From IMG/VR virus record IMGVR_UViG_3300028920_000094, positions 1 to 50,721 of that record: DNA of 50,721 nucleotides; one strand, given 5' to 3'. The notes under the pieces are model-generated. The model made no database searches. It worked only from the letters and a program-made list of their open reading frames with translations, and had not been told where the DNA came from. How positions within the stretch are numbered: position 1 is the first letter of the stretch; the number at the start of each line of letters is the position of its first letter. This document shows positions 10,024 through 41,040 of the stretch, one piece after another. The DNA comes from a virus. A program made the position numbers and the translations under genes.

Positions 10024-11442
10024 ATGCGAGCCCCCGACTACACCCGCGACGGCATCGACCTCTACCTCGGGGACTGCCTCGACGTCCTCCCCGAGCTCGA
10101 CCCCGTCCCCACCATCCTCACCGACCCGCCCTACGGCCTCGGCTTCATGGGCAAGGAATGGGACCATGGGGTGCCTGGCATCCCCTTCTGGCAGGCCATG
10201 CCCCTGCTTCCTGGCGGGCATCTGCTGGCCTTCGGGGGCACCAGGACGTGGCATCGGCTATGGTCTGCCATCGAGGACGCGGGCTTCGAGCTCCGCGACA
10301 CCCTGATGTGGCTCCACGGCCAGGGCTTCCCCAAGAACCACAACATCTCCAAAGCCCTCGACAAGGCTGCCGGCGCACAACGCGAGGTGGTCGCTACTAT
10401 CCCCGACAGGTGGGCAGGTGCAGGCAATGTCCTATGCAGAGCGGGGCAAGCCCCGCGGCCGACTGCCGAGGTCACCGCCCCTGCGACGGCGGCGGCTGTG
10501 GTCTGGGACGGGTGGGGGACGGCACTCAAGCCCGCCTGGGAGCCGGTGGTCGTGGCCATGGCCCCCCTCGACGGCACCTACGCCGCAAACGCCCTCGCCC
10601 ACGGCGTCGCCGGCCTCCACATCGATGCCGCCCGAATCCCCACAGGGGAGGACTGCGCCAGGGGGCGCGCCGTGGTGGGCGACACACCGGCGGCCTTCGG
10701 TCGAGGCTACGCGATGGGAGGCAACGGCTCCCCCCACGGCCGCTGGCCTGCGAATCTCGCACTCGACCCCGTCGCCGCGCGGATGCTCGACGAGCAGAGC
10801 GGGGAAAGGCGGCCGGCAGGTGTGCATCGGGAGAGCGCGGGCAAGATAATTGACAACAAGGTCTTCGGACGCGGATTCCGAAGAACGGATGATGCCCTCT
10901 ATGACGACAGCGGGGGCGCAAGCCGCTTCTTCTACGTGGCGAAGGCATCAGGCGCTGACATCGGCCGCTGGCCTGCGAATCTCGCACTCGACCCCGCCGC
11001 CGCGCGGATGCTCGATGAGCAGAGCGGGGAACTCCACACCCACCCCGGCACGATGCGCAACGACGGCCAGCCCGGGTTCATGTGCTCGGGGCGCAGGGCA
11101 GGCGACGTGCTCAGCCACGGTGAGAAGGGGGGCGCGAGCCGCTTCTTCTACTGCGCCAAGGCCTCCCGCTCCGAGCGGGGGCAGGGCAACGACCACCCGA
11201 CCGTCAAGCCCCTCTCCCTGATGCGATGGCTGGTGCGGCTCACCGACACCCCGAGCCACGGCACCATCCTGGATCCGTTCGCGGGCAGCGGCACCACCCT
11301 GGAGGCGGCCTGGCTCGAGGGCCGGCCCGCCATCGGCATCGAGAGCGACGAGCATAACTTCGCCCTCGCCGTCGCACGCATCGACCGCGCCCTCGACGCC
11401 GCCGCCACCGCCGCCCCACTCTTCGCCGCCGCAGGAGGCTGA
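10024..11442 (+). CDS. DNA N6-adenine/N4-cytosine methyltransferase
   Basis: 472 residues. Motif IV DPPYG is at residues 34-38 and motif I DPFAGSGTT at about 416-424, so the order is that of the beta class of amino-methyltransferases that use S-adenosylmethionine. HPTVKPLSLM precedes motif I, as in phage solitary methylases. The middle carries a segment present twice (about residues 239-260 and 314-335, GRWPANLALDP..AARMLDEQSG), each followed by GGASRFFY. Its place inside the tail module, bounded by a repeat array, suggests a late insertion (moron-like). Likely role: protecting phage DNA from host restriction. The target sequence cannot be read from the protein. Confidence 0.9.
   Translation: MRAPDYTRDGIDLYLGDCLDVLPELDPVPTILTDPPYGLGFMGKEWDHGVPGIPFWQAMPLLPGGHLLAFGGTRTWHRLWSAIEDAGFELRDTLMWLHGQGFPKNHNISKALDKAAGAQREVVATIPDRWAGAGNVLCRAGQAPRPTAEVTAPATAAAVVWDGWGTALKPAWEPVVVAMAPLDGTYAANALAHGVAGLHIDAARIPTGEDCARGRAVVGDTPAAFGRGYAMGGNGSPHGRWPANLALDPVAARMLDEQSGERRPAGVHRESAGKIIDNKVFGRGFRRTDDALYDDSGGASRFFYVAKASGADIGRWPANLALDPAAARMLDEQSGELHTHPGTMRNDGQPGFMCSGRRAGDVLSHGEKGGASRFFYCAKASRSERGQGNDHPTVKPLSLMRWLVRLTDTPSHGTILDPFAGSGTTLEAAWLEGRPAIGIESDEHNFALAVARIDRALDAAATAAPLFAAAGG
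10738..10805 (+). repeat. Intragenic repeat, copy 1
   Basis: 68 bases nearly identical to 10963-11030, within the DNA methyltransferase gene. Only a few bases differ, and they are mostly silent. Confidence 0.85.
10963..11030 (+). repeat. Intragenic repeat, copy 2
   Basis: Second copy of the 68-base repeat inside the methyltransferase gene. The spacing of 225 bases is a multiple of 3, so the frame is preserved. Confidence 0.85.
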
Positions 11443-31474: not shown

Positions 31475-33524
31475 CCTCTTCTCGCCCATCGAACTCGAGG
31501 CCCTCAGGCTCGACGAGGAACTCACCATCCCCGAGTGGATGGACCGCTACCTCTATCTCCCCCGCGAGGACCACCCGCAGGCCGGCCCGTACCACACAAA
31601 CCGCACACCCTACGCCCGCGGCATCGGCGAAACCATCTCCGACCCCACCACCACCATCATCGACTGGGTCGCATCCCGCCAGGTCGGCAAAACCGTAATG
31701 ATGACAGGCGTCGACGGCTTCTACTGCGACCAACAACCCACCCCCATCCTCCACACCATGCCCACCGAGGACGCCGTCAAGGCCTACGCCGACAACCGAT
31801 TCCGCCACCACGTCGAGCAGTCCGAGGGATTCCAGCGCAACGTCCCCGCCTCCCGCAACGCCATGCGCGGGATGATCAAGCAATTCGTCTCCAACTCCCT
31901 CTACTTCGCCTGGGCGGGCTCCATCGCCAGCGTCGTCTCCACCCCCATCGGCGTCTGCATCCTCGACGAGCTCGACCTCTACCCCGCATCCGCCGAAGGC
32001 CAGGTCGACCCCGCCGAAGCCGCCATCGAGACCACGACCAACTTCCCCGGGCGCAAAATCATCCGCGCCTCCACCCCATCCCTCGCATCCACCGGCATCT
32101 GGCAAGCCTTCCTCACCAGCCTCCAACACCTCTTCTTCGTCCCCTGCCCCCACTGCGGCCGCTACCAGGTCCTCACCTTCCGAGGCACCCGCGAGGGCAA
32201 GGACGCCGAGCGCCTCGGCGAACACTACGGCGTCACCTGGCCCGCCGACTGCCGCGACCGACACCGCATCGCCGCAGAGCAGCTCGCGTGGTACGAATGC
32301 CGCTACTGCGCAGGTCGCATCCCAAACCACCAAAAGCCCTGGCTCCTCCTCCGCGGCCTCTGGCTCCCCATCATCCAGGATAGGAAAAACCCGTATGCCT
32401 GGGACGACACCCTTGCCCAGGAATTCCTCTCCCTCTACGCCAAGCCCATCGCCGACGCCTGCGCCAGCGACACCCCCTCCGCCATCCTCGGCGGCCGCAC
32501 CGCGCACCATGCCCGCCGCCTCCTCGACCCCGACGGCACCATCGAATGGGCCGACCCCTGGTCCACCCACGTCGGATTCCGCCTCGACGGCCTCTACTCG
32601 CCCTTCGACGGACGGTCATGGTGGGCATTCGCCGCCAAGTTCCTCGAGACCAAAGAATTCCCCATCCAGCTCAAAGTCTTCCGCCAGCACTGGCAGGGCC
32701 TCCCCTGGCTCCAGAAAACCATCGAACTCTCCGACGAGCTGCTCCGAAAATACATCGGCACCCACACCATGGGCGTCGTGCCCAAGGGCACCCGCGTCCT
32801 CACCGCAGGCGTCGACGTACACGACTACCGATACGTCCTCGGCGTCTACGGCTGGGGCGACGACGACCGCCTCCCCCTCATCTACTGCACCGAGGTCGAC
32901 ACCTGGGACGCCGTGGTCGAAGTCCTCTTCCGCTCCGCATGGTCCATCGAACAGGCCACACCAGACACACTCCACGTCACCATGGCCTTCGTCGACACAG
33001 GCTGGAACACCGCGGTCGAATACGACCACGTCCGCGAGTGGCCCGACCGCTGCCGAGCCATCAAAGGGGTGACGGGCACCGCCATGGCCGGAGCCCCCTG
33101 GCGCATCCGCAAAATCGAGCACAGCCCCCACACAGGCAAACCCTACCCCGGCGGCCTCCCCCTCGTCCTACTCAACGTCGATATGCTCAAGGACGAGCTC
33201 GTCCTCCGCCGCCTCACCGTCGACCCTGGCCAGCCCGGCAGCGTCATCTTCCCCGTCGACGTCCCGGACTGGTGGCTCGCCGGCCTCACCGCCGAGCAGA
33301 AAGTGCCGCACGTCAACCGCCGCACAGGCCAGGCCACCGAAGAATGGATCGTCGTCGACGGGAAACCGAACCACCCCCTCGACGCCACGGTCTACGGTTT
33401 GGCCGCAGGGAACTTCATCGGCGCCACCCGCCTCCGCCCCGGCACCCAGCCCCCCCGACAGACCCACCACGCACGCACCCGCCGCCCCTGGCACGGCGTC
33501 CGAAAGCAAAAGAGGAGACGATGA
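31452..33524 (+). CDS. Terminase large subunit (gpA family)
   Basis: 690 residues. ATPase: adenine/Walker A region ASRQVGKT at residues about 73-80, Walker B ILDELDLYP at about 169-177 with the catalytic Glu. Two CXXC knuckles (CPHCGR near 231, CRYCAG near 284) fit the lambda gpA-type zinc region. Nuclease part: AGVDVHDY near 451, VDTGW and PLDATVY later, giving the acidic triad pattern of RNase H-like terminase nucleases. Packages DNA and cuts at cos. ATG 31452 gives the expected length. The last residues are basic and Arg-rich. Confidence 0.92.
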   Translation: MAATPQPDLFSPIELEALRLDEELTIPEWMDRYLYLPREDHPQAGPYHTNRTPYARGIGETISDPTTTIIDWVASRQVGKTVMMTGVDGFYCDQQPTPILHTMPTEDAVKAYADNRFRHHVEQSEGFQRNVPASRNAMRGMIKQFVSNSLYFAWAGSIASVVSTPIGVCILDELDLYPASAEGQVDPAEAAIETTTNFPGRKIIRASTPSLASTGIWQAFLTSLQHLFFVPCPHCGRYQVLTFRGTREGKDAERLGEHYGVTWPADCRDRHRIAAEQLAWYECRYCAGRIPNHQKPWLLLRGLWLPIIQDRKNPYAWDDTLAQEFLSLYAKPIADACASDTPSAILGGRTAHHARRLLDPDGTIEWADPWSTHVGFRLDGLYSPFDGRSWWAFAAKFLETKEFPIQLKVFRQHWQGLPWLQKTIELSDELLRKYIGTHTMGVVPKGTRVLTAGVDVHDYRYVLGVYGWGDDDRLPLIYCTEVDTWDAVVEVLFRSAWSIEQATPDTLHVTMAFVDTGWNTAVEYDHVREWPDRCRAIKGVTGTAMAGAPWRIRKIEHSPHTGKPYPGGLPLVLLNVDMLKDELVLRRLTVDPGQPGSVIFPVDVPDWWLAGLTAEQKVPHVNRRTGQATEEWIVVDGKPNHPLDATVYGLAAGNFIGATRLRPGTQPPRQTHHARTRRPWHGVRKQKRRR

Positions 33525-34113: not shown

Positions 34114-34120
34114 AAGGAGG
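34114..34120 (+). promoter_or_regulatory. Ribosome binding site shared by two overlapping frames
   Basis: AAGGAGG five bases before TTG 34126 (frame A) and nine bases before ATG 34130 (frame B). One site could serve both starts. Confidence 0.6.
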
Positions 34121-34125
34121 ACGCA

Positions 34126-35043
34126 TTGAATGGCCTGGCTCTATGTGCCGGCGTGTCGGGGCTCGAGCTCGGTCTACGGCGCGCACTCGGAAACGCATAC
34201 CACACCGTCTGCCACGTGGAGAGGGAAGCCTACGCCGCGGCGGTTCTGGCCGCGCGTATGGAGGACGGCTGCCTGGAGCCTGCGCCTGTTTGGGACGATC
34301 TCGCGACCTTCGATGGCCGCTTCTGGCGTGGCACGGTGGATATCGTCTCTGCGGGATTCCCGTGCCAACCCTGGAGCTGCGCAGGCCGACGCCTCGGCCA
34401 GGCCGACGCCCGATGGCTCTGGGACCCCATCTGGAGATGCCTTCGCGACGTTCGACCCGCACTCGTCCTCCTGGAAAACGTCCCGGGACTTATTCGGGGC
34501 GGCCTCGACCCTGTCCTCGGCCGACTGGCCAGCCTCGGGTTCGATGCGGAGTGGGACGTGTTTTCGGCGGCCGCGAGCGGAGCCCCCCACCGCCGCCGCC
34601 GCATCCTCATCCTCGCTGCCCACACCGCAAGGATACAGCTTTGCCGACAGCCACCAGCCAGGCATCACCAGGCTCGACATCGCCATCAGGTGGCCGACGC
34701 CGCGAGTGCTCGACAGCCGCAACGTCCCCTACCAGCAGCACCCCCGCAAGCAGGGCCACCGGTGGCCGACCCTGTGCGGCGCGGTGAAGTGGCCGACGCC
34801 CGCGGCCCGAGACTGGCGGAGCGGCAAGGCCAGCCCTGCCACACACGCCCGCAACTCCCGCCCACTCTCCGAGGTGGCAGCAGCGGCTGGTGGGCTGCTG
34901 AACCCGACGTGGGTCGAGTGGCTGATGGGGTGGCCCATCGGGTGGACAGACTGCGCGCATGCGGCAACGGAGTCGTTCCGCAGATGGTCGCTCGGGCTCT
35001 CCCCATCCTCATCCACCGATTGACCAGCGAAAGGACCCGATGA
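34126..35043 (+). CDS. C5-cytosine DNA methyltransferase (frame A)
   Basis: 305 residues from TTG 34126; the usual family opening M-NGLALCAG fits this start, and an in-frame GTG at 34105 is an alternative. Motifs in order: LCAGVSGLELGL (I), PCQPWS at 79-84 (IV, catalytic Cys80), ENV at 117-119 (VI), APHRRRR at 153-159 (VIII), RLRACGNGVVPQ at 275-286 (X). The region between VIII and X is Arg/Pro/His-rich and looks less natural than the other frame there. The same DNA carries frame B (34130-35023) with its own conserved-looking motifs. Transfers methyl to cytosine-5 of DNA, probably to evade host restriction. Confidence 0.82.
   Translation: MNGLALCAGVSGLELGLRRALGNAYHTVCHVEREAYAAAVLAARMEDGCLEPAPVWDDLATFDGRFWRGTVDIVSAGFPCQPWSCAGRRLGQADARWLWDPIWRCLRDVRPALVLLENVPGLIRGGLDPVLGRLASLGFDAEWDVFSAAASGAPHRRRRILILAAHTARIQLCRQPPARHHQARHRHQVADAASARQPQRPLPAAPPQAGPPVADPVRRGEVADARGPRLAERQGQPCHTRPQLPPTLRGGSSGWWAAEPDVGRVADGVAHRVDRLRACGNGVVPQMVARALPILIHRLTSERTR
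34130..35023 (+). CDS. Overlapping frame B with methylase-associated motifs
   Basis: 297 codons, +1 to frame A and contained within it. It starts 4 bases after the frame A TTG and ends 20 bases before its stop. Visible motifs: FDPHSSSWKTS (DNA of the ENV region in frame A), DWPASGSMRSG, LPTPQG, RWPTP, KWPTPAARDWRSGK, NSRPL and NPTWVEWLMGW. These match, from memory, a set of phage proteins often annotated as cytosine methyltransferase or hypothetical. GC-rich third positions favour frame B in 34700-34940. It could be a true second protein, or part of one protein joined by frameshifts. Confidence 0.5.
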   Translation: MAWLYVPACRGSSSVYGAHSETHTTPSATWRGKPTPRRFWPRVWRTAAWSLRLFGTISRPSMAASGVARWISSLRDSRANPGAAQADASARPTPDGSGTPSGDAFATFDPHSSSWKTSRDLFGAASTLSSADWPASGSMRSGTCFRRPRAEPPTAAAASSSSLPTPQGYSFADSHQPGITRLDIAIRWPTPRVLDSRNVPYQQHPRKQGHRWPTLCGAVKWPTPAARDWRSGKASPATHARNSRPLSEVAAAAGGLLNPTWVEWLMGWPIGWTDCAHAATESFRRWSLGLSPSSSTD

Positions 35044-35411: not shown

Positions 35412-36539
35412 ATGAACAAGGTCACCGACCTCATGCTCCTCCCCCGTGCCTCCGACGGATGGCTCATGGGCGAAGAATGCTGCTGGCAGCGAAAGTCGCC
35501 ATGGACCCCCTTCTTGCCCCTCATCGCCGCCTCGGCCTGGGGGATCCCCATCGAGCCCTGGGACGTCGACGGCGACCAACAGGCCGCCGCCGACCTCAAC
35601 CACACCATGGTATTCTCCGCCAGCTTCGCCGACGAGCTCGAAGCCTCCCTCGCCCGAATCCCACACGCATCCCTCATCCCCAACCCCGCATGTGCCTTCG
35701 AGCACCTCGCACGCCGAATCCCACACCACTCCACCGTCCTGCCCAACGCATTCTACCGCGACACCCCGCTCGACCTCTCCCTCATCCCCGACGACCTCTG
35801 GCCCACCTTCACCCACATCCTCTACCAGGTCAGCACAGGATGCCCCTGGCACTGCCCGTTCTGCGTGTGGCAAAACAGCCTCCACAAACGCCCGCCCGCC
35901 CTCTGCGTCCGCGAAATCGACGCCCTGCTCGAGCGCGTCCCCGCCGCCGCCGCCGACACCTCGGGCAACTCCATCTCCATCCTCGCCAACGAGCTCAGCG
36001 GCCGCCCCCGATGGCTCGCCGAGTTCGCAGCAGGGATGCACGACCTCCATGTCGCCTGGCGCACCGACCTCAACATCCGAAACACTACCGAGCGCACCAT
36101 CGCAACCCTCGCCTGTGCAGGCTGCCGCCACGTCACCCTCGGCGTCGAGTTCCTCACCACCTCAATGCTCCACACGCTCGGCAAAGGCCACGACATCGAG
36201 GACGCCCTGCTCGTGATGGCCATGCTCCAGGCCGCAGGCATCGGCTACCACTTCAGCCTCCGCCAAGGCGTCGGCGAGACCGTCGCCGACCTCACGGAGA
36301 TGGGCGACAACCTCCAGTTCTTCGCGGCGGAGGGCATCCGCCCCGAATGGGTCCACGTCGGACACATGATCCAGTGGCAGGGCCAGACCTGGCTCGGCGA
36401 CACCCCGAAACGCAACATCGGCACCGAGGCCTGGCCCCGCCACACCGCTATCCTCGCCCCCGACATCCACGCCGCCTGGCAGAAGATCGTCGGCCTCCTC
36501 GCCACCCTCGGCTGGGCCAAAGCCCAGCGCGACGCGTGA
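35412..36539 (+). CDS. Radical SAM protein
   Basis: 375 residues, ATG 35412 after AAAGGA. C144, C148 and C151 form STGCPWHCPFC, the CX3CX2C iron-sulfur and SAM-binding motif. Downstream strands and helices (ILANELSGRP, WRTDLNIR, ITLGVEFLTTSMLHTLGKGHD) fit the partial TIM barrel, with the GVEF segment in place of the usual GIES. The first 140 residues have a Rossmann-like pattern, so a class B (cobalamin-binding-like) arrangement is possible, without a clear cobalamin motif. The substrate is unknown. In this phage it could modify DNA, a protein or a virion sugar. Confidence 0.78.
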   Translation: MNKVTDLMLLPRASDGWLMGEECCWQRKSPWTPFLPLIAASAWGIPIEPWDVDGDQQAAADLNHTMVFSASFADELEASLARIPHASLIPNPACAFEHLARRIPHHSTVLPNAFYRDTPLDLSLIPDDLWPTFTHILYQVSTGCPWHCPFCVWQNSLHKRPPALCVREIDALLERVPAAAADTSGNSISILANELSGRPRWLAEFAAGMHDLHVAWRTDLNIRNTTERTIATLACAGCRHVTLGVEFLTTSMLHTLGKGHDIEDALLVMAMLQAAGIGYHFSLRQGVGETVADLTEMGDNLQFFAAEGIRPEWVHVGHMIQWQGQTWLGDTPKRNIGTEAWPRHTAILAPDIHAAWQKIVGLLATLGWAKAQRDA

Positions 36540-37732: not shown

Positions 37733-37761
37733 TTGCGGCGGCCGAATCCATGTTGTAAAAT
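37733..37761 (+). promoter_or_regulatory. Weak candidate promoter before the head module
   Basis: TTGCGG at 37733-37738, 17-base spacer, TAAAAT at 37756-37761. The hexamers match only partly, but the stretch is AT-rich and precedes the head module. Confidence 0.35.
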
Positions 37762-37837
37762 GATTCCAGGGACAAATGAGGCGGCTTCACGCCGCGTGGC
37801 GCTCGGGGACGCCCGAGCCCCCCTCAAAACCTCTGAA

Positions 37838-37874
37838 GCAGGCCGTGCGGGGCCGCACACCCGGCACGGCCTGC
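37838..37874 (+). promoter_or_regulatory. 11-bp inverted repeat before the gpW-like gene
   Basis: GCAGGCCGTGC (37838-37848) pairs with GCACGGCCTGC (37864-37874), 15-base loop. No T-tract follows, so it looks like an RNA regulatory hairpin or binding site and not a terminator. It ends 3 bases before an ATG that has no ribosome site. Confidence 0.55.
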
Positions 37875-37904
37875 TCCATGTCCCCCACACAGGAGCCCCA
37901 ACGC

Positions 37905-38114
37905 TTGGCCTTCACCGCAGCCGACATCACGACTATCGAGACCGCCATCACATCCACCATCACCTCCGGCGGCGTCCGTCGCATCACGGTAGGTGGACGC
38001 ACCGTCGAGTTCCGCTCCGCATCCGACCTGTTCGAGCTCCTCAACCTCGTCCGCCGCGAGGTCTACGCCTCGACCAACGCCGTCACGAAGGCCGATCTCA
38101 GGAACCGCCCGTGA
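37905..38114 (+). CDS. gpW-like head-tail joining protein
   Basis: 69 residues. TTG 37905 is chosen: AGGAG lies nine bases upstream, and the resulting start (M)AFTAADI is the usual opening of this family. The ATG at 37878 sits directly behind a hairpin with no ribosome site. The sequence has the short helix-strand-strand-helix of gpW (VRRITVGGRTVEFRSASDLFELL). Lies immediately before the portal, as gpW-like proteins do in lambda-type order. It binds the portal ring and helps tail attachment. Confidence 0.75.
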   Translation: MAFTAADITTIETAITSTITSGGVRRITVGGRTVEFRSASDLFELLNLVRREVYASTNAVTKADLRNRP

Positions 38115-39652
38115 GCCGGCAGAGGCACCACACCCACCGCAAAGCCCACCACGAGCCCCTCCACAAGAGGCTCGACACAGTGATCCAGCACTACTTCCCC
38201 GCCTGGGCATTCAACCGCGAGCAGGCACGCGTCCGCGCCGGCCTCGCCCGCCGCGCACGCGAGGGCATGGAACGCCGACGCCGCGCCAAGGGAGCCTCCC
38301 ACTACCAGGACGCACGCTCCGGCCGCCTCAACCGCCGCCGATCCTCACGCGGCGGCTCCGCCGACAGCCACGCCACCCAGAGCATCCTGTTCACGCTCCG
38401 CGAAAACGTCCGACACCTCGTCGACAACTCGACCCTCGCCGAGGGCCTGCTCCAGACCGACTGCGACAACGTGATCGGCCGCGAGCCCATGCCCCAGGCG
38501 CAGACCGCCGACGCCGAATGGAACCGCGAGGCCGAGAAGGTCTGGCACAACGAGCCGCTCGACGTGCGGGGCATCCTCCCCAACTCCGAGTTCCTGCGGA
38601 TGCTCTACACCTCCGTCCGACGCGACGGCGACCTCGCACTAATCAAGAGCGACGGGCGGTTCCAGGCCCTCGAGGCCGAGTTCATCGCCACACCCACCAA
38701 GTACGGCACCGACGACGCCGTGGTCAACGGCATCCGGTTCGACGACATCGGGCGGCCGATCGAGTACTACATCGCCACCGAGCACCCCACCTCCGCCTAC
38801 GTGAATAAGACGACCACGCGCCCCGCCGAGGACGTCATCCACATCTTCCGCCCCGGCAGATTCTCCGCCTCCCGAGGCGTCCCCATCCTCGCAAAAGTGA
38901 TCGACGAGATCGACCGCCTCAACGACTATGTCGAAGCCACCGTGATCGCGGCGCAGATGGCCGCCTGCTACGCCATCGTCCGCAAAACCTCCTACTGGCC
39001 TGAAAAGCGCGGCAACGCCAAGACCAACGACGACACGGGCGACAGCGAACGATGGGAAGAAGTCGAGCCGGGCATGATCCTCTATGCCCATCCCGACGAG
39101 GAAGTGCAGCAGCTCAATCCGAACCACCCCAACCAGCAGTTCGAGACCCTCGTCGACACCCTCTGCCGATTCACGGGCCGCCACATGGGCCTCCCCCTCG
39201 AGCTCGTGTTGCTGAACTTCTCGCACTCGAACTTCTCAAACACCCGCGCCGCCCTGCTCCAGGCGCAGCGGACGTTCGAGAACACACAGCACTGGCTCGA
39301 CAGCGGCGTGTTCCGCCAGATGTGGGGCTACAGCACGGAGCACGCGATCCGACGCGGATGGCTCCAGCCCCACCCCGAGGCGGCCAAGGTCCACTTCGTC
39401 ATGCCGGGCTGGCCGTGGGTCGACCCCCTCAAGGACATCCAGGCCGACATCCTTGCCCTCGCCAACGGCCTCCGCTCCCCGCAGCAGGTCGCCTCCAAAT
39501 GGGGCGTGGACGCCGAGACCGTCATCGAGCAGGTCGCCCTCTACCGCGAGATGCTCGCACGCTACGGCGTCGAAATCGAATACACACTCCGCCCCGGCAC
39601 ACAGGCCGCAGGCGGCGACGATAAAGACGAGCCCGAGGAGAGCAAGGAATGA
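38111..39652 (+). CDS. Portal protein (lambda gpB type)
   Basis: 513 residues, GTG start overlapping the previous stop. Basic N-terminal part (residues 1-75), followed by the portal core: VDNSTLAEGLLQT, WHNEPLDVRG, DGDLALIKSDGRF, HIFRPGRFSASRGVP, LDDY-like DRLNDYVEA, and FNFSH-like LNFSHSNFSNTRAALLQAQRTF near residue 385. A Gly/Asp/Glu-rich acidic tail ends it. Forms the dodecameric vertex through which DNA enters. Matches the gpA-type terminase upstream. Confidence 0.9.
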   Translation: MSRQRHHTHRKAHHEPLHKRLDTVIQHYFPAWAFNREQARVRAGLARRAREGMERRRRAKGASHYQDARSGRLNRRRSSRGGSADSHATQSILFTLRENVRHLVDNSTLAEGLLQTDCDNVIGREPMPQAQTADAEWNREAEKVWHNEPLDVRGILPNSEFLRMLYTSVRRDGDLALIKSDGRFQALEAEFIATPTKYGTDDAVVNGIRFDDIGRPIEYYIATEHPTSAYVNKTTTRPAEDVIHIFRPGRFSASRGVPILAKVIDEIDRLNDYVEATVIAAQMAACYAIVRKTSYWPEKRGNAKTNDDTGDSERWEEVEPGMILYAHPDEEVQQLNPNHPNQQFETLVDTLCRFTGRHMGLPLELVLLNFSHSNFSNTRAALLQAQRTFENTQHWLDSGVFRQMWGYSTEHAIRRGWLQPHPEAAKVHFVMPGWPWVDPLKDIQADILALANGLRSPQQVASKWGVDAETVIEQVALYREMLARYGVEIEYTLRPGTQAAGGDDKDEPEESKE

Positions 39653-41040
39653 ACCACGCTGCCGCCATCTTCGCCCGCCCGTGGGCAATGGAGCCGACGC
39701 GTCTGCTCGACTTCGCCGCCCGCATCCTCCACGGCGGCTCTGCCACCATCCTCCAGCTCGACAAGCTGCCCGACATCCAGCAACTCGGCTACGACCTCAC
39801 CGCAGGCGTCGCCACCATCGCCATGAGCGGAATCTTCATCAAGGGCGGCGACCCCATCCTCGAACGATGGGGCCTCGGCATCATCGACACCGAGCAGGTG
39901 GCCGCCGCCATCGACGACGCCCTCGCCGACGACGCGGTCGAGCGGATCCTCCTCTCCATCGACAGCCCTGGCGGCGATGCCGCAGGCGTCGAAGCTCTCG
40001 GCGACAAGGTCTACGAAGCATCGAAGATCAAGCCCATCGACGCCCACATCGCAGACATCGGGGCCTCCGCCGCCTACTGGATCGCATCCCAGGCACGCAC
40101 CATCACCGCCAACGCCACCGCCACTGTAGGCTCCATCGGCGTGTATATGACGATCTGGGACACAAGCAAGGCGGCAGAAGACGACGGCCTGAAGGTCTAT
40201 CTCATCGCATCAGGCCCCCTCAAGGGCCAGGGCTCCACGGGCGTGCCCGTCAGCCAGGAAGCCATCGACGAGTGGCAGGGCATCATCGACGGAATGGCCG
40301 GCTACTTCGTCAAGGCCGTCGCCCGCGGCCGCCGAACCACGCAAAAGGCCATCCGACAGCTTGCAACGGGAGCCGCCTGGCTCGCCGAGGACGCCAAGGC
40401 CAACGGCCTCATCGACGCCGTCGGCCACCTATCCACAGCACTCCAATCGCCGGGGCGGCTCCGCCGCTCGTCGGCGGAAACCCCCCGACAGGAGGAACCG
40501 ACCATGGCAGACGAGACCGACAAGATGACGCCCGAGGCCCTGCGCGAGCAGTTCGCCGACGCCGTCAAGGACATCGAGGGCAAGGCCAGCGCCAAGGCGA
40601 TGGAGCACACCGGCGACATCCTCCGCGCCCAGCTCGCGGAGTTCGGCGAGACCTTCGCCGAGGACCCCAAGTTCGCCATCGACCGCTTCGTCGCCGGCGA
40701 CACACTCGCCGAGGCCAAGGCCGCCTACGCCGACGTGCTCAAGGTCCGCCTCGCAGACGAGGCCGAGGCCCGCAAGGCCGTCGAGGCACAGCTCGCCGAG
40801 CGCGACAAGCTCGTGCCCCAGACCCACACCGACAAGCAGAAGACCGACGCCGAGGTCGAGGCCGACAAGAAGAAGGCCGAGACCGAGGCCAAGGGCGCGC
40901 CGTCCACATGGGAGGAAGCCATCGCCCTCGTCCTCACCGAGCTCGGCAAGGCCAGCCTCGCAGGCAAGGATCTCCTCGCCGCCCGCACCGAGGCCGCCAA
41001 GATCGCCCGCAACCGCTTCCCCGACTGCCTCGGGAAGTAA
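39649..41040 (+). CDS. S49-family head maturation protease with fused scaffold
   Basis: 463 residues. Residues about 55-240 are a SppA/S49 (ClpP-fold) domain: SIDSPGGDA, DIGASAAYWIAS with nucleophile Ser140, and NATATVGSIGVY. The last 178 residues are acidic, helical and Ala/Glu/Lys-rich, typical of scaffold. A nested start at 40504 would express this part alone (see the scaffold entry), as in lambda C/Nu3. The protease cleaves scaffold and probably other head proteins. Confidence 0.88.
   Translation: MNHAAAIFARPWAMEPTRLLDFAARILHGGSATILQLDKLPDIQQLGYDLTAGVATIAMSGIFIKGGDPILERWGLGIIDTEQVAAAIDDALADDAVERILLSIDSPGGDAAGVEALGDKVYEASKIKPIDAHIADIGASAAYWIASQARTITANATATVGSIGVYMTIWDTSKAAEDDGLKVYLIASGPLKGQGSTGVPVSQEAIDEWQGIIDGMAGYFVKAVARGRRTTQKAIRQLATGAAWLAEDAKANGLIDAVGHLSTALQSPGRLRRSSAETPRQEEPTMADETDKMTPEALREQFADAVKDIEGKASAKAMEHTGDILRAQLAEFGETFAEDPKFAIDRFVAGDTLAEAKAAYADVLKVRLADEAEARKAVEAQLAERDKLVPQTHTDKQKTDAEVEADKKKAETEAKGAPSTWEEAIALVLTELGKASLAGKDLLAARTEAAKIARNRFPDCLGK
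40504..41040 (+). CDS. Nested scaffold protein (Nu3-like)
   Basis: 178 residues in frame with the protease gene, starting at ATG 40504 with AGGAGG nine bases upstream (a strong, in-frame internal site). Helical, acidic, with coiled coil (LRAQLAEFGETFAED, EARKAVEAQLAERDKL). This is the layout of lambda C/Nu3: the protease carries a scaffold C-terminus, and free scaffold is made from the internal start. Confidence 0.75.
   Translation: MADETDKMTPEALREQFADAVKDIEGKASAKAMEHTGDILRAQLAEFGETFAEDPKFAIDRFVAGDTLAEAKAAYADVLKVRLADEAEARKAVEAQLAERDKLVPQTHTDKQKTDAEVEADKKKAETEAKGAPSTWEEAIALVLTELGKASLAGKDLLAARTEAAKIARNRFPDCLGK

Follow-up and report, generated by a model that had tools for sequence, protein, structure and literature searches.

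Two reading frames share a methyltransferase locus

The window analysed here is the whole IMG/VR virus record IMGVR_UViG_3300028920_000094, a stretch of 50,721 bases from a tailed phage. Between the genes encoding the terminase (31476-33524) and the portal (37733-39652), with a head protease at 39649-41040, two open reading frames overlap fully on the plus strand, as the original prediction had stated. Frame A starts with TTG and spans 34126..35043 (305 aa); frame B starts with ATG, spans 34130..35023 (297 aa), and lies in the +1 frame of A. The ribosome site that they had been said to share is also there: a single Shine-Dalgarno sequence, GGAGG (34116..34120, plus strand), stands 5 nt before the TTG of A and 9 nt before the ATG of B, and is placed to serve both starts, which are 4 bases apart. 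The correspondences pointed out between the frames are exact to the base, VLLENVP in A being read as SSWKTS in B and EPDVGRVADG in A as NPTWVEWLMG in B. The same phage carries one more DNA methyltransferase, of a different type (10024-11442; phrog_67, 6e-57), and a radical SAM protein (35412-36539; PF04055, 1e-7) is encoded close downstream of the A/B pair, within the terminase-portal interval.

C5-cytosine methyltransferases have ten motifs in a fixed order; the target recognition domain (TRD) lies between motifs VIII and IX. Searched on its own, frame A matches this family in PHROGs (phrog_363, 6e-59) and in Pfam (PF00145, 5e-29), the latter over residues 2-192 only. We identified motifs I, IV, VI, VIII, and X, among them PCQPWS with the catalytic cysteine (motif IV, 34360..34377), ENV (motif VI, 34474..34482), and GNGVVPQ (motif X, 34963..34983), all on the plus strand; residues C80, N118, R157, and R159 are invariant across relatives. 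A single catalytic domain thus holds motifs I, IV (PCQ), VI (ENV), and VIII (QRxR-like) of PF00145, but IX and X do not both belong to the chain that has I-VIII: X is in A and IX only in B. Motif IX was not found in frame A, where its expected place reads EPDVGRVADGVAHRVDRL. The motif set of A, described earlier as complete, is therefore short of one member, which is the NPTWVEWLMGW of frame B. The AlphaFold model of A is ordered over residues 1-172 and 275-305 (pLDDT mostly >90), and this part is a structural match to M.HhaI; most of 176-272 has pLDDT <50 and is predicted to be disordered. Base composition varies along the gene. The weaker GC bias noticed at third positions in the N-terminal half of A was recovered (GC3 of 0.76 over codons 1-165 vs 0.82-0.92 in neighbouring genes). 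Over codons 166-275 of the window, GC1 is 0.86 and GC3 0.62, so that the GC-rich wobble position is there the third position of frame B.

The separate search with frame B gave phrog_1008, 'DNA methyltransferase' (3.9e-27), and no match among Pfam or NCBIfam models. Its N-terminus, MAWLYVP (34130..34150, plus strand), is kept in other loci even where it is displaced from the conserved A start. A small conserved core, FATFDPHSSSWKTS...WPASGSMRSG (34442..34555, plus strand), overlaps the part of A with motifs VI-VIII and is truly dual coding: third-position conservation rises over A codons 91-150, stops are absent, the ratio of B-altering to silent changes is 0.38, and pLDDT reaches about 80 in parts. 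Then come LPTP/WPTP repeats (34621..34895, plus strand), a TRD-like stretch that, judging by substitution phases, is read meaningfully in B, in a segment where constraint on A is weak and disorder is predicted for it. Motif IX follows as LNPTWVEWLMGWPIGWTD (34898..34951, plus strand), the DNA that reads EPDVGRVADGVAHRVDRL in A, and shows a B-frame substitution pattern; the motif IX sequence of frame B, LNPTWVEWLMGWPIGW, includes NPTWVEWLMGW. LNPTWVEWLMGWPIGWTD occupies the position of motif IX in those relatives whose motifs all lie in one frame, i.e., the Gordonia phages JKSyngboy and Rabbitrun and the Propionibacterium phage PFR2, which read, for example, LSPVFVEWMMGLPRGW ... LGNGVVP in the same frame. 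Modelled alone, B has a mean pLDDT of 60, better only in a small core at about 101-150 and in the motif IX helix, and a fold search with this low-confidence model found no PDB match for B. The TRD assignment thus draws on position and motif IX only.

The pair is conserved across phages and bacteria

Searches with tblastn gave 1144 phage records with A as query and 59 with B. The loci examined for both frames came from viral contigs (80 retrieved by B and 34 by A) and from bacterial and archaeal genomes (80 of 428, by B alignment). Both frames were present, in the same +1 register, in nearly all of about 235 related loci fetched with A or B as query, and in the two sets scored for relative frame B was +1 of A in every scorable locus (116/116 and 81/81). 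The loci come from phages and from genomes of Proteobacteria, Actinobacteria, Firmicutes, cyanobacteria, and others. Named records with the same pair include phages of Mycobacterium, Microbacterium, Vibrio, Lacticaseibacillus, Microcystis, Pseudomonas, and Stenotrophomonas, and also a Leptospira plasmid. No standalone B gene lacking an overlapping A was found among the fetched loci. The Klebsiella T4-like phage KP15, which has an ordinary C5 methyltransferase, has no B, and the +1 frame of its gene shows no depletion of stops (5 vs 6.15 expected). Regular breakage of frame B beside an intact A was looked for in the homologues and not observed; B is open in essentially all of them. Many loci were retrieved with B as query, which biases them towards intact B, and the set retrieved with A (L087-L120) agrees with them, having 17 stops in +1 vs about 90 expected.

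Individual annotators had noticed some of these +1 genes without giving them a functional reading: g56 of Paenibacillus phage Shelly ('g55 internal gene'), gp40 of Streptococcus phage P0091, and gp75/gp76 of Mycobacterium phage Cici. Starts of B are often called late in actinophage annotations; in Cici gp75, ByChance gp64, and DrYang gp78, the annotated start of B lies downstream of the point inside gene A where frame-B homology sets in.

Two observations bear on how B is initiated. First, an NTG start of A is followed exactly 4 bases later by the ATG of B in 58 of the 133 scorable loci. Second, in 15 loci B has an M(x)WLYVP-type N-terminus that precedes the conserved A start by 8-53 bases, with the motif kept. 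Retention of this motif where it does not overlap the conserved block of A favours independent initiation over a frameshift product, and separate initiation of B is, from these comparisons, the most likely mode.

Selection acts on both frames

To obtain the number of stops expected, synonymous codons were shuffled inside each A gene. The +1 frame has 84 stops vs 508 expected, and those seen are mostly at the very start, before the start codon of B; under the same shuffle the +2 frame has 1459 vs 1297 expected. Over A codons 96-250, the 138 representatives (<70% identity) have 0 stops in +1 vs 295 expected. As a control, 280 flanking ORFs analysed alike gave 2960 stops vs 2987 expected (ratio 0.99). 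The window alone has 2 stops in +1 vs 4.7 expected, and loci of low GC are open too (Shelly, 0 vs 7.4 expected; R9.1, 0 vs 5.8). The codon shuffles, the flanking-gene controls, and the low-GC loci together rule out the chance openness of a GC-rich frame, and confirm that the two conserved coding frames of the original prediction are more than chance.

Part of the similarity of B across loci is nonetheless an automatic shadow of conserved A codons, which only tests on synonymous sites take out. We used three tests that remove it. First, substitution phases: A codons 1-165 and 276-300 vary mostly at the third position of A, and codons 166-275 vary most at the first, which is the third of B. Second, third positions of A are more uniform than codon usage predicts, with a mean Z of about 4 over codons 91-150 and of 10 over 251-276, values that are comparative with the baseline of codons 31-90 (Z of 1.7-1.9) and not probabilities, because the representatives share ancestry. 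The codon of Pro260 of A, for example, ends in C in 135/137 sequences vs 44 expected. Third, changes in 30 independent close pairs were sorted into four classes by their effect in each frame. Relative to doubly synonymous changes, those synonymous in A and altering B occur at 0.38 over codons 96-150 and at 0.24 over 251-275, and those replacing a residue in A and silent in B at 0.16 and 0.72, respectively. Across A codons 2-172, A-silent changes that merely alter B occur some ten or more times as often as those introducing a stop into it. The shadow contributes to the similarity of B, but by the third-position and four-class tests it is not its whole cause.

Constraint therefore alternates A-B-A along the gene: it is in A over A codons 1-165 and 276-300, in B over 166-275, and in both over about 96-150. 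B is tightly held and A nearly free over 251-275, and both frames are constrained over 96-150. In the AlphaFold model of A, order coincides with the A-constrained segments and disorder with the B-constrained ones. The synonymous sites of A, where a footprint of B had been predicted, are constrained by frame B, and the comparisons show that both frames are under purifying selection in complementary segments. That one locus makes two proteins, the first of the two explanations initially offered, is strongly supported by the comparison, B being open, protected from stops, and provided with an N-terminal motif of its own.

Motifs IX and X change frame between lineages

We placed the catalytic domain, the B core, motif IX, and motif X with separate profiles at permissive thresholds. 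The arrangement of the window, with IX in B and X in A, occurs in 205 loci. Both motifs are in B in 12 loci, e.g., in the Mycobacterium phages Cici, ByChance, and Murai and the Arthrobacter phage DrYang, where A and B are annotated as two genes, mostly both as 'DNA methylase'. Both are in A in 6 loci, in which the B core is usually still present in +1. Almost every locus has one motif IX and one motif X, whichever the frame. On the tree of the catalytic domain, whose deep branches are weakly supported, 10 changes of architecture are needed vs a minimum of 3, which suggests that modules changed frame more than once. The second explanation initially offered, that one motif family arose from the other by frameshift, keeps some of its ground, since IX and X lie in different frames across lineages; the frames are not two complete methylases.

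The persistence of B where A itself holds IX and X suggests that B does more than deliver motif IX. In Streptococcus phage P0091, the Dcm-like methyltransferase is complete and has motif IX in its own frame, and the +1 gene gp40 (L219, 1943-2362) lies inside it; gp40 has 0 stops vs 6.4 expected at 41% GC, and is thus apparently selected. At another locus (L161, 3689-4524), an indel divides the catalytic domain between frames, the N-terminal part of A being in frame with B; this is probably an assembly error, or else a decayed gene.

Discussion

The comparative evidence indicates that A and B are complementary parts of one enzyme, with motif IX in B and the rest in A, a relation that the original prediction had missed. 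We consider it very probable that the product of the locus is a C5-cytosine DNA methyltransferase of two subunits, each read in its own frame of the same DNA. Subunit A would comprise the S-adenosylmethionine-binding catalytic domain (I-VIII) and the C-terminal motif X helix, with an unstructured linker between them. Subunit B would be translated separately, by initiation 4 nt downstream of the start of A from the same ribosome site, and may supply motif IX and the target-recognition region, which ordinary C5 methyltransferases have between VIII and X of a single chain, and may set specificity. The two would assemble into an active heterodimer that methylates phage DNA. Phage C5 methyltransferases usually serve to protect against restriction, and the methylation would most likely shield the phage DNA from host restriction. 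The frames would time-share the sequence, each being informative mainly where the other is linker, except over A codons 96-150, where both are.

Three other readings have to be weighed. Programmed frameshifting, in which a +1 shift after motif VIII on A yields a single chain with the TRD and motif IX encoded in B, would give the normal motif order in lineages with IX and X together in B (Cici, ByChance, DrYang, Murai). The common arrangement, with X back in frame A, would need two shifts. A second frame that existed only for such a fusion would have neither its own start nor constraint upstream of the shift, yet both are conserved: B retains its start and N-terminal motif, and is constrained over the part of A encoding motifs IV-VIII. 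We regard frameshifting as unlikely. Quite unlikely, too, is the reading that B only overlaps the methyltransferase and is an independent phage protein, e.g., a regulator or anti-restriction factor. It would account for the persistence of B without motif IX beside methyltransferases that have IX and X in A (JKSyngboy, Rabbitrun, PFR2), and for gp40 within the complete enzyme of P0091, but in the common type motif IX is in B only and A is incomplete without it. Finally, it is highly improbable that only A is a protein and frame B a by-product of GC-rich codon usage, since, even if shadowing is real (the WKTS and MRSG of B follow from the ENV and DAEW of A) and the window by itself is GC-rich, with 2 stops vs 4.7 expected, this reading is contradicted by the stop-free codons 96-250, the open low-GC loci, the conserved third positions of A, the evolution of the motif IX region as B frame and not as A, and an A that lacks motif IX and is disordered at that very place.

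The two-subunit enzyme that we favour is of a known kind. To our knowledge, such a double-frame arrangement is known from only one characterised R-M enzyme; the small polypeptide of M.EcoHK31I is reportedly encoded within the large gene, in a different frame, and the genes of M.AquI overlap only partially. Compared by architecture and not by sequence, the window is like M.EcoHK31I (E. coli, YGGCCR) in having I-VIII and X in a large chain and IX in a second polypeptide that comes from a different frame of the locus (+1, selected). M.EcoHK31I consists of a larger polypeptide with motifs I-VIII and X and a smaller one with only motif IX, and M.AquI is split differently, its second subunit having IX and X (PMC3404938). 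The TRD of M.EcoHK31I is predicted in the large subunit, whereas the TRD-like stretch of the window evolves in frame B, and A is predicted disordered there. The window further differs in that its frames overlap almost completely and share a start site, and in belonging to a phage-borne and widespread family, whereas M.EcoHK31I is part of an R-M system. M.AquI (cyanobacterial, CYCGRG) is likewise a split C5 methyltransferase, and its second subunit resembles the actinophage type with both motifs in B; its split lies within the variable region, whereas the window keeps X with A. A search of the accessible literature on this overlap in phages did not find the general arrangement described, M.EcoHK31I and M.AquI being the only cases mentioned. 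In PHROGs, family 363 is matched by A, and families 1008, 26627, 27243, 35493, and 16143 by B and B-like proteins; these are labelled 'DNA methyltransferase' or unknown, and the relation of the two frames on the same DNA is not noted there.

What sets the window and its relatives apart is 1) the near-complete overlap of the two coding frames; 2) their wide occurrence in phages; and 3) a second protein that has mostly been missed or mislabelled. It is fairly probable that a large share of phage 'DNA cytosine methyltransferases' are half-enzymes with their recognition subunit hidden in +1, that recognition and C-terminal modules hop between frames, with one of each retained in nearly all genomes, and that these are among the most widespread nearly full-length double-coded phage genes. 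Anyone cloning or annotating the visible ORF alone would lose the motif IX subunit, and probably the specificity with it, and a missed B could explain phage methyltransferases that are silent or cannot be assigned. The family also provides a large natural data set on how two frames share information, with the A-B-A alternation of constraint, one truly dual-coded stretch, and the switching of modules between frames from lineage to lineage.
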